Assembly: GCA_902538495.1 (NCBI GenBank)
Contig: CACBFJ010000002.1
Coordinates: forward strand, 62,001-126,000
Origin: an uncultured Pelagibacteraceae bacterium
GTDB lineage: Bacteria > Pseudomonadota > Alphaproteobacteria > Pelagibacterales > Pelagibacteraceae
Reading direction: 5' to 3'
DNA: 64,000 nucleotides
Shown here: piece after piece, positions 14,182-23,940 of the stretch
Layout of the letters: each line of letters starts with the position of its first letter
How positions within the stretch are numbered: position 1 is the first letter of the stretch
Program-made: the position numbers and the translations under genes
Notes under the pieces: generated by a model
The model's database searches: none
Told to the model about the DNA's origin: nothing
What the model saw: the letters and a program-made list of their open reading frames with translations, nothing else

Positions 14182-14507
14182 TGACATACTTAGTTAATGA
14201 TAAATGTATTAAATGTAAACTTACTGATTGTGTTGATGTTTGCCCGGTTGATTGCTTTTATGAAGGTAAAAATATGCTTGTAATTAAACCCGATGAGTGT
14301 ATAGATTGTGGCGTTTGTGAACCTGAATGTCCAGTGGATGCAATTCAAGCAGATACAGAGCCAGGGAGCGACAAATGGTTAGAGATCAACAAAAAATATT
14401 CTGAAATCTGGCCGAATATAAGCGAAAAAAAAGATCCACCTTCGGATCATGAAAAATATAAAGATGAGCAAGATAAGTTTGAAAAATATTTTAAAGAGAA
14501 CATTTAA
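14181..14507 (+). CDS. fdxA: Ferredoxin (7Fe-8S type)
   Basis: [21 protein letters not shown] and [16 protein letters not shown]. Confidence 0.95.
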
Positions 14508-15333
14508 AAATAAATCCAAAAAAACAAAAAAGGTGACTAAAGCAAAAGTTACCAAAAGTATAAAAAAACCAGTCAAAAAGATTAAAAAATTAGTAAAACC
14601 AAAATCTAAAAAAATTATTCAAAAAAAACAAAATAAAAGTAATCAAAAAAATATAGAGTTAAAACAAGACAACTTAAGAATTTCCAAGGGGACAGAAATC
14701 AAACCTGAGATAAAAAAGGTAAATAAACAAGCGACTGAAAAAAGAGAGTATAAAATAAAAGATTATGTTGTTTATCCTAAACATGGTGTTGGACAAATAT
14801 CTGAATTTAAAAAAATTAGTATTGGCGGAATTGATGTTGAAACATATGTAATTAAATTTGAGAAAGATAAAGCTAATGGCATGGTTCCAGTCAATAAACA
14901 ATCTCACCTTCGTCCATTAGCTACAATCAACCAAGTTAACAAATGTATTTCGATTTTGAAAAGTAAACCCAAAATTAAAAGATCAATGTGGAGTAGGAGA
15001 GCACAAGAATATGAGGCTAAAATTTCCTCAGGTAAAATTTATGAATTAGCAGAAGTGGTAAGAGATCTGAATAAAGGAGACGATTTAATGGTCGACCAAT
15101 CCTACAGTGAAAGACAACTTTTTGAAAAAGCTTATGAAAGGATTTTATCTGAATTTAAAATAATATTGAATGTATCTTTGGAAGATACCCAAAAAAAAAT
15201 GGATAAAGCATTAAAAAGAAACTTAGATGGCCAAAATAAACAAGAGACTACAGCAATTAAAAGTTCAGCACCTGAAATACAAGATGAAGAGCCAATTTCA
15301 GAAAGCGACAATGACGAACCTGTTGAAGACTAA
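14449..15333 (+). CDS. CarD/CdnL-type RNA polymerase-interacting regulator with Lys-rich N-terminal extension and acidic C-terminus
   Basis: [21 protein letters not shown]...[12 protein letters not shown] is the CarD RNAP-interacting domain, preceded by about 95 Lys-rich residues. Exact start uncertain (14449 or 14464); N-terminus overlaps fdxA out of frame. Confidence 0.88.
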
Positions 15334-15336
15334 AAA

Positions 15337-15375
15337 AAAACGCCTCTCACACATAACGTTATGAGAAGCGTTTTT
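15337..15375. terminator. Bidirectional intrinsic terminator between carD and the K/R-rich peptide gene
   Basis: AAAACGC-C-TCTCA ... TGAGA-A-GCGTTTTT stem with a palindromic inner segment CATAACGTTATG; T-rich on both strands. Confidence 0.8.
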
Positions 15376-15394: not shown

Positions 15395-15472
15395 TTATCT
15401 TCTTCTTCTTTTCTTAGCTTTTTTCTTAGCTTTTTTCTTAGCCTTCTTTGCTTTTTTTCTTCTTTTAGCCAT
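15395..15472 (-). CDS. 25-aa extremely basic peptide (MAKRRKKAKKAKKKAKKKAKKRRRR)
   Basis: Read by eye, absent from ORF track. AGGGAG Shine-Dalgarno upstream of ATG, sigma70-like promoter, 5' hairpin and downstream terminator. Confidence 0.75.
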   Translation of the reverse strand: MAKRRKKAKKAKKKAKKKAKKRRRR

Positions 15473-15494
15473 CTTTAGCTCCCTTTTTAGTTAA

Positions 15495-15514
15495 ACGAAT
15501 CAAAATTGATTCGT
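15495..15514. promoter_or_regulatory. Inverted repeat ACGAATCA-AAAT-TGATTCGT in the 5' leader of the K/R-rich peptide gene
   Basis: Perfect 8-bp arms; just downstream of the predicted -10. Confidence 0.6.
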
Positions 15515-15523
15515 AATTACTTA

Positions 15524-15552
15524 TTTTTATTTTTTTATACACGTTATGTCAA
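15524..15552 (-). promoter_or_regulatory. Sigma70-like promoter for the K/R-rich peptide gene
   Basis: Minus strand TTGACA (15552-15547), 17-bp spacer, TAAAAA (15529-15524). Confidence 0.55.
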
Positions 15553-22729: not shown

Positions 22730-23940
22730 AATATGTAAATAAAAATTTTTTTGTAGAGGATATTAAAGCATCTTATTTAGCAAAAAAATTTGGAACTCCG
22801 CTTTATTGTTATTCATCAAAAAAGCTAAAAAATAACATAAGTAATTTGAAGAATAATTTTAGAAAAATTGATCCAATTATATGCTTTTCTGTAAAATCAA
22901 ATCCCAATACATATCTGTTACGGGAAATTAGCAAACAAGGTTTGGGTGCTGATGTTGTTTCAATTGGTGAGCTAATGAAAGCCCTTAAAGCAGGAATAAA
23001 GCCAAAAAATATTGTTTTTTCAGGAGTTGGTAAAACTGAAGTTGAAATTGAATACGCCGTTAAAAAAAAAATATTACTTATAAATGCAGAGTCTAAAAAT
23101 GAAATTTTGCAAATAGAAAAAATTGCTAGAAAGCACAAAACTAGAGTTAATGTAGGAATTAGATTAAATCCAAATACTGATGCAAAGACTTTGAGCCAAA
23201 TATCAACAGGGAAAAAAGAAAACAAATTTGGGGTTTCCGATAAAGTATTCCTGACACTTGTCAACTATGTGAAAAAATCAAAAAATTTAAAATTGAAGTG
23301 TTTAAGTGTTCATATAGGAAGTCAAATCTTAGACTCAAAACCATATGAAAAAATGCTCAAGATACTTGATAAAATTATAAAAAAAACCAAGTTCAATTTT
23401 GAATATATTGATTTAGGCGGTGGAATGGGAATTAGTTACAATGATGATAAGAAAACTTTAAATCTAGATAAATATTCCAATAGTATAAAAAAATTTATAA
23501 AAAAAAATAAGTCTAAAATCATACTAGAACCTGGTAGATCTATAATTGGTAATACAGGTATTTTAATATCAAAAGTAATTTACAATAAAGAAGGATATAA
23601 AAAAAATTTCATAATATTAGACGCAGCCATGAATGATCTTATGCGTCCAGCCTTGTATAATGCAAAACATCAAATTAAACCAGCTATAAAGAATAATAGC
23701 TATACAAATAAAGTTTATGAATTTGTTGGTCCAATTTGTGAGAGCACTGATAAATTTGGATCATACAAAAAGTTTCAAAAATTGAAGGAGAATGATTTAA
23801 TAATTATTTGTGATGTTGGAGCTTATGGGATATCCTTAAGTTCAAATTATAATTTAAGACCCAAACCAGCAGAAATATTAATTAAAAAATCAAAAGCTAG
23901 TGTGATCTCAAAAAGACAGAAACTTATTGAAATAATATAA
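22726..23940 (+). CDS. lysA: Diaminopimelate decarboxylase
   Basis: PLYCYSSKKL, CFSVKSNPN PLP-lysine motif, HIGSQI, GPICESTD. Confidence 0.95.
   Translation: MKYVNKNFFVEDIKASYLAKKFGTPLYCYSSKKLKNNISNLKNNFRKIDPIICFSVKSNPNTYLLREISKQGLGADVVSIGELMKALKAGIKPKNIVFSGVGKTEVEIEYAVKKKILLINAESKNEILQIEKIARKHKTRVNVGIRLNPNTDAKTLSQISTGKKENKFGVSDKVFLTLVNYVKKSKNLKLKCLSVHIGSQILDSKPYEKMLKILDKIIKKTKFNFEYIDLGGGMGISYNDDKKTLNLDKYSNSIKKFIKKNKSKIILEPGRSIIGNTGILISKVIYNKEGYKKNFIILDAAMNDLMRPALYNAKHQIKPAIKNNSYTNKVYEFVGPICESTDKFGSYKKFQKLKENDLIIICDVGAYGISLSSNYNLRPKPAEILIKKSKASVISKRQKLIEII

Follow-up and report, generated by a model that had tools for sequence, protein, structure and literature searches.

The window analysed here, a 64,000-nucleotide stretch of Pelagibacteraceae DNA, carries on its minus strand a short ORF (15395..15472) that reads MAKRRKKAKKAKKKAKKKAKKRRRR and encodes a 25-aa K/R/A peptide. 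The gene, referred to as KRA, was delimited from its ORF, its homologues and codon-level selection. Its promoter comprises a −35 hexamer TTGACA (15547..15552, minus strand), kept as TTGACAT in the aligned same-genus leaders, and, after a 17-nt spacer, a weak predicted −10 TAAAAA (15524..15529, minus strand) whose position is deduced. The leader holds the palindrome ACGAATCAATTTTGATTCGT at 15495..15514 (minus strand), which would fold as the hairpin ACGAATC-AATTTT-GATTCGT, followed by the Shine-Dalgarno sequence AGGGAG at 15479..15484 (minus strand). The original prediction of a minus-strand ORF with promoter, 5′ hairpin and Shine-Dalgarno was confirmed in every one of these elements. The intrinsic terminator that it also described is real and lies just outside the interval then reported, extending to 15332 (15332..15370, minus strand; stem 15370-15341, T-run 15340-15332). 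The hairpin is near-symmetric and near-palindromic, has T-runs on both sides and keeps its stem in relatives; as it can also serve the convergent carD, whose ORF ends at 15333, it is probably common to both genes.

The core of KRA contains, as described earlier, a 12-nt tandem repeat, GCTAAGAAAAAA. Among ORFs of 20-60 aa in the 64-kb window, KRA alone reaches 70% Lys+Arg, and 30 windows simulated with the same dinucleotide composition contained no such ORF. The gene is present in one copy in its own genome. A role as an attenuation leader peptide was considered and rejected, as no same-strand gene lies downstream and the terminator and the convergent carD come next.

Orthologous KRA sites in SAR11 relatives were located through CarD homologues. 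Almost every same-genus locus inspected, including one (L016) that the first composition filter had passed over, has a KRA-type ORF on the 3′ side of carD and in convergent orientation, and a KRA-type gene is likewise convergent to carD in other genera of the family. The same-genus consensus consists of the peptide M(A/P)KRRKKA...RRRR and the leader AGGGAGCTAAAG; frame, Shine-Dalgarno and promoter are conserved in close relatives, so the feature withstood the refuting condition that had been set for it on these three points. The 77 same-genus KRA genes represented 51 different coding sequences, which encode 36 different peptides 20-35 aa long, with an amino acid composition of 53% Lys, 21.5% Arg and 18% Ala, Pro being almost absent. 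Apart from gains or losses of whole codons, the 51 coding sequences differed only in synonymous changes and in K/R or A/P exchanges; between near-copies, 171 codons showed synonymous changes, 75 K/R swaps and 12 A/P swaps. Such changes, together with the whole-codon shifts in length, are typical of a translated gene in which composition is constrained rather than exact sequence, and the expectation that the length would vary between strains was borne out. In other genera of the family the peptide measures 21-58 aa and is longest in genus g7. In genus g12 (L120/L142, G429), the peptide ORF MAKRRKGGKKKKKAKKKKKK is followed by 27 hydrophobic residues, a run-on that is probably due to a frameshift in an A-rich tract, either real or an assembly error. 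Phage-borne KRA was also considered; eight viral contigs matched the core pattern, all of them with neither the hairpin nor a peptide gene, and these matches fit chance. The genomic evidence indicates that KRA is a real, conserved and selected gene, kept by essentially every SAR11 bacterium checked. The proposal of a dedicated unit with a selected function is supported to this extent, by the conserved gene and by the coding-level pattern within the genus.

The 5′ half of the leader palindrome contains the GANTC site CGAATCA (15507..15513, minus strand), which was found unchanged in 75 of the 77 same-genus genomes, in all 18 genomes of other genera and at all three sister-family loci. Its partner arm is GATTCG in the genus and GATTTG, giving a G.U pair in the RNA, in eight other-genera genomes, so that pairing is kept through G.U in two genera; in g5-g7 and g11 another hairpin is in place and CGAAT is unpaired. 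The outermost pair of the leader hairpin varies across the genus between A-U, G.U and G-C. With CGAATCA fixed and the partner arm varied, the 5′ half is conserved as sequence and the 5′ hairpin as structure. The earlier suggestion of a hairpin/operator is hence right only in part, the 5′ half being fixed over two families and the 3′ half varied or replaced. The combination TTGACAT-N25-40-CGAATCA occurred at most once per genome, only at KRA where it was found, and once in the own genome of the window. CGAATCA agrees with the extended GcrA motif YGAKTCG (PMC7987155) taken as its reverse complement, and a GcrA gene was found in 11 of 12 genomes tested, the exception being the incomplete own genome. 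The KRA promoter resembles GcrA/CcrM-controlled promoters (PMC7987155) in that the site fits YGAKTCG on the other strand and GcrA is encoded, and differs from them in that the candidate site is situated immediately downstream of the predicted transcription start. Cell-cycle control of KRA by GcrA/CcrM through CGAATCA may be proposed on this specific basis.

In the sister family, the slot convergent to carD is occupied by histone-H1-like proteins of 85-89 aa with KAAPKKK repeats (L049-L051), and these genes are preceded by TTGACA and ACGAATCA, i.e., by the same TTGACA...CGAATCA promoter/leader element. Owing to the synteny and the common promoter/leader element, common descent of KRA and the H1-like gene is the simplest account, although sequences of such low complexity do not allow homology to be tested directly. 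An H1-like gene would thus have been placed convergent to carD throughout the Pelagibacterales, its product having shrunk to 20-35 aa in the genus, compared with ∼85-89 aa in the sister family. As a side observation, the CarD of the window (14449-15333, plus strand) bears a Lys-rich N-terminal extension of ∼95 aa, and sister-family CarD matches also start near residue 2 of this protein; the basic extension therefore seems to be conserved beside the H1-like gene.

Hc1 and Hc2 are bacterial histone-H1-like proteins rich in Lys, Ala and Pro. Searches against Pfam and NCBIfam returned no meaningful match to any KRA or sister-family H1-like form, and none at all to KRA even at an E-value of 10; PDB sequences likewise contained no match to the KRA peptide. 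The sister-family forms are repetitive Lys/Ala/Pro-rich polycations and the genus form is a K/R/A polycation. As they match no curated H1-like, Hc1 or Hc2 model, KRA is filed as H1-tail-like and not as a member. Like bacterial H1-like Lys/Ala/Pro-rich proteins such as AlgP, KRA is repetitive (K/A/P or K/R/A) and has no folded domain, whereas unlike them the genus form has only 20-35 aa, is almost free of Pro and is unmatched by any model. The most fitting reading of KRA is that of an H1-tail-like polycation that has shrunk. The peptide is most likely a charge-driven binder of nucleic acid (DNA and/or RNA) of the H1-tail type without a folded domain, and a nucleoid or nucleic-acid-binding role is likely. 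Nucleoid compaction, one of the functions originally suggested, ranks among the best readings, KRA being the syntenic counterpart of the 85-89-aa H1-like gene of the sister family.

The Shine-Dalgarno and start region of KRA, AGGGAGCTAAAGATGGCTAAA (15464..15484, minus strand), is the predicted target of an RNA encoded elsewhere in the genome. When the Shine-Dalgarno/start sequence was scanned against 397 genomes of the order, a second site besides KRA was found in most same-genus genomes, and in every same-genus genome set this second GGGAGCTAAAGATGG site was the reverse strand of Rfam family RF01814 (“rhtB” RNA). In the own genome of the window the RNA lies outside the window, on contig C9 of G000 (23563-23645, plus strand). 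Its score there was 78.6 bits against a covariance-model gathering cut-off of 55 bits, with 82.1 bits in G012, 73.4 bits in G108 and 65-84 bits in most same-genus genomes; matches above the cut-off were obtained in 28 of 60 and 30 of 40 further genomes. No match above the cut-off was found in other genera of the family, and the RNA went undetected in certain incomplete genomes with a retained leader (e.g., G009, G348 and G395). Candidate antisense partners in other genera (G148, G116 and G327) were discarded, these pattern matches lying in coding sequence or having no hairpin. The KRA region itself gave no Rfam RNA above the cut-off, and a weak rhtB match at 15445-15511 (plus strand) is the complementary stretch on the opposite strand.

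In its own direction the RF01814 hairpin reads GAUAGUCCUU-CUUAGCCAUCUUUAGCUCCCGG-UUUUUAAGGACUAUC. Its 10-bp stem is paired in 99.6% of alignment cells, three pairs show changes on both sides, and the support for the stem exceeds that of all or nearly all shuffles and of every slid version. U.G or G.U stem pairs (L299, L188, L189, L194 and L263) would turn into A.C mismatches if the opposite strand were read, and a recurrent promoter-like AATGCA-17/18-TGATATTAT, ending ∼7 nt before GATAGTCC, lies upstream of the hairpin. The U.G pairs, valid one way only, and the upstream promoter fix the transcribed strand. Among 111 distinct loci, rhtB (LysE/RhtB) starts 4-14 nt after the stem in 88, the NPEP-motif neighbour (a TIGR03643/DUF2805 protein) is kept in 99, and a clear T-run follows the stem in 34. 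The hairpin and loop are kept with no rhtB after them in the remaining 23 of the 111, which argues that the main job of RF01814 is not the control of rhtB; the hairpins standing 4-14 nt before rhtB may nonetheless have a role in its 5′ UTR. Meyer et al. (2009; PMC2704228) described RF01814 as a bulged hairpin near rhtB, left its target unassigned and suggested a terminator or regulatory role; in the literature searched, the family is mentioned by no other paper. The partner RNA found here is a member of the family, and the present account departs from that of Meyer et al. (2009) in assigning to it a specific, co-varying target at another locus.

The RF01814 hairpin is complementary to AGGGAGCUAAAGAUGGCUAA of the KRA mRNA, the leader through the start codon being the exact complement of the loop, so that complementarity covers both the Shine-Dalgarno and the start codon. 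Only ∼6e-6 exact copies of such a 19-mer would be expected by chance in the own genome. Uniqueness of the target was judged from pattern scans of the genomes and from 62 start regions of the window. The predicted duplex of −42.2 kcal/mol compares with −21.7 kcal/mol for the best of the 62 other window start regions and with −33.8 kcal/mol for the best of 2000 dinucleotide shuffles. Positions −12 to −2 of the KRA leader are 100% invariant in 76 genomes of the genus, as against 39-78% per site in 18 genomes of other genera, where no RF01814 was found above the cut-off. Clades with a Pro codon after the start (ATGCCT) have one internal mismatch to RF01814. In six genomes (G037, G214, G280, G286, G316 and G415) the leader carries an A (GGGAGCTAAAAATGG) and the RF01814 loop the matching U. 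Leader and RNA co-varied in six A/A and 33 G/G cases (leader G, RNA C), with none discordant. Fisher's test on a smaller count gave 5e-7 and ignores relatedness; the claim of co-variation was hence rested on one or two events together with the extended complementarity. The A genomes fall into two supported clades on a tree of CarD; at least two changes are needed on the best tree, yet a single origin is still allowed. The leader G-to-A change may thus be one event, and the compensatory change rests on few events (one or two).

Two further observations concern this pairing. At one locus (L316, AG-404-C04), the RF01814 copy carries the U variant in a background that is otherwise of the C type. 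In G182 (L201 and L097), the peptide is MAAKRKAAKKSKKKAKKRSR, the leader reads ...ATGGCCGCA and the RNA carries CUCUCGG and ACC changes; in this divergent pair the pairing may have decayed in part or been re-matched locally. The pairing of RF01814 with KRA is a new element, visible through other genomes and not from the window alone.

On this evidence we consider it rather probable that KRA is a selected minimal polycation gene, derived from an H1-like gene and repressed within the genus, Pelagibacter, by RF01814 acting as a trans antisense RNA. RF01814 would be transcribed from its own promoter and fold as one hairpin, the 5′ arm edge and loop of which carry CUUAGCCAUCUUUAGCUCCC. This stretch would pair with the Shine-Dalgarno and start codon of the KRA mRNA and exclude the ribosome, so that KRA translation would be held down in trans in the genus; the peptide itself would coat nucleic acid (DNA and/or RNA) by charge. 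From the sequences we infer that KRA is transcribed and translated in cells, that RF01814 represses rather than activates, and that the peptide binds nucleic acid. A search of 12 Pelagibacterales genomes (G000, G012, G101 and others, single-contig ones included) detected no Hfq (PF17209), while five control genomes matched; the pairing therefore probably relies on the long perfect duplex. IstR-1/tisB is a known case of a trans-encoded antisense RNA that blocks translation start. RF01814 resembles IstR-1 in being short, structured, encoded at an unlinked locus and perfectly paired at the leader of its target; unlike that system, its target is a near-universal polycation gene and not a hydrophobic toxin, and Hfq was not detected. 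Tentatively, RF01814 could even be pictured as an Hfq-independent antisense switch for a replication-timed (GcrA/CcrM-controlled) histone-like peptide, one 47-nt RNA and one 25-aa peptide together setting the charge compaction of the nucleoid.

Other readings were weighed against repression of an H1-derived polycation. KRA could act as a polyphosphate- or RNA-condensing peptide instead of a nucleoid protein, or as an RNA-annealing helper in cells without Hfq, and the lack of Hfq matches in those 12 genomes accords with the latter; the peptide might even help its own RNA partners to anneal. A precedent is the H1-like AlgP of Pseudomonas, which is reported to act on polyphosphate granule spacing (PMC9239181). 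As such a polycation would bind any polyanion, this possibility, which we hold to be a minor one, is compatible with the main reading.

A reversal of roles, in which the KRA mRNA is a dual-function RNA that opens the hairpin in the rhtB 5′ UTR and frees the AGGA of its 3′ arm while its Lys/Arg/Ala codons sense amino acids, appears unlikely. The position of rhtB in 88 of the 111 loci would suit it, as would an AGGA or AGGG in the RF01814 3′ arm at a plausible Shine-Dalgarno distance and the identity of RhtB as a LysE-type translocator (PF01810). However, the exporter beside RF01814 scores much higher against homoserine/threonine exporter models than against the lysine exporter model, the hairpin and loop are kept with no rhtB after them in 23 loci, and KRA is older than RF01814 and is kept in genera where the RNA was not found. 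Most type I toxins are hydrophobic and have a patchy distribution. A type I toxin-antitoxin system, with a cationic peptide toxic at high level and RF01814 as its trans-encoded RNA antitoxin, is accordingly improbable for KRA, which occurs almost universally as a single copy at the same syntenic position in two families, genera without detected RF01814 included, even though a small ORF, a stable 5′ hairpin and an antisense RNA over the Shine-Dalgarno and start codon recall such systems and an overproduced, highly basic peptide could be harmful.

Least probable of all is a small ribosome-bound basic protein in kind like bTHX, bS22 or eL41, which the length, charge and single copy of KRA and its MAKR start, common to many ribosomal proteins, might suggest, but which finds no bTHX/bS22 model or PDB sequence match and is at odds with a peptide that spans 20-35 aa in the genus, reaches 89 aa elsewhere and has no aromatic or other anchoring residue, such variable length and pure K/R/A make-up being unfit for one ribosomal pocket. 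The bTHX-like option of the original prediction is thereby left unsupported, so that, overall, that prediction holds in part: for the selected unit and the nucleoid option, and partially for the operator.

While H1-like polycations and trans antisense RNAs are known, the reduction to peptide size and the newly identified target of RF01814 are new. Pelagibacter ranks with the most abundant marine organisms and possesses only a small number of regulators. With the pairing described here, RF01814, an unexplained RNA family, gains a concrete and testable target, and SAR11 gains a near-universal unannotated gene. KRA would document an H1-like protein cut to ∼25 residues while its promoter element stayed fixed, and RF01814 and KRA may be a clear-cut example of sRNA-mRNA pairing in bacteria without detected Hfq.
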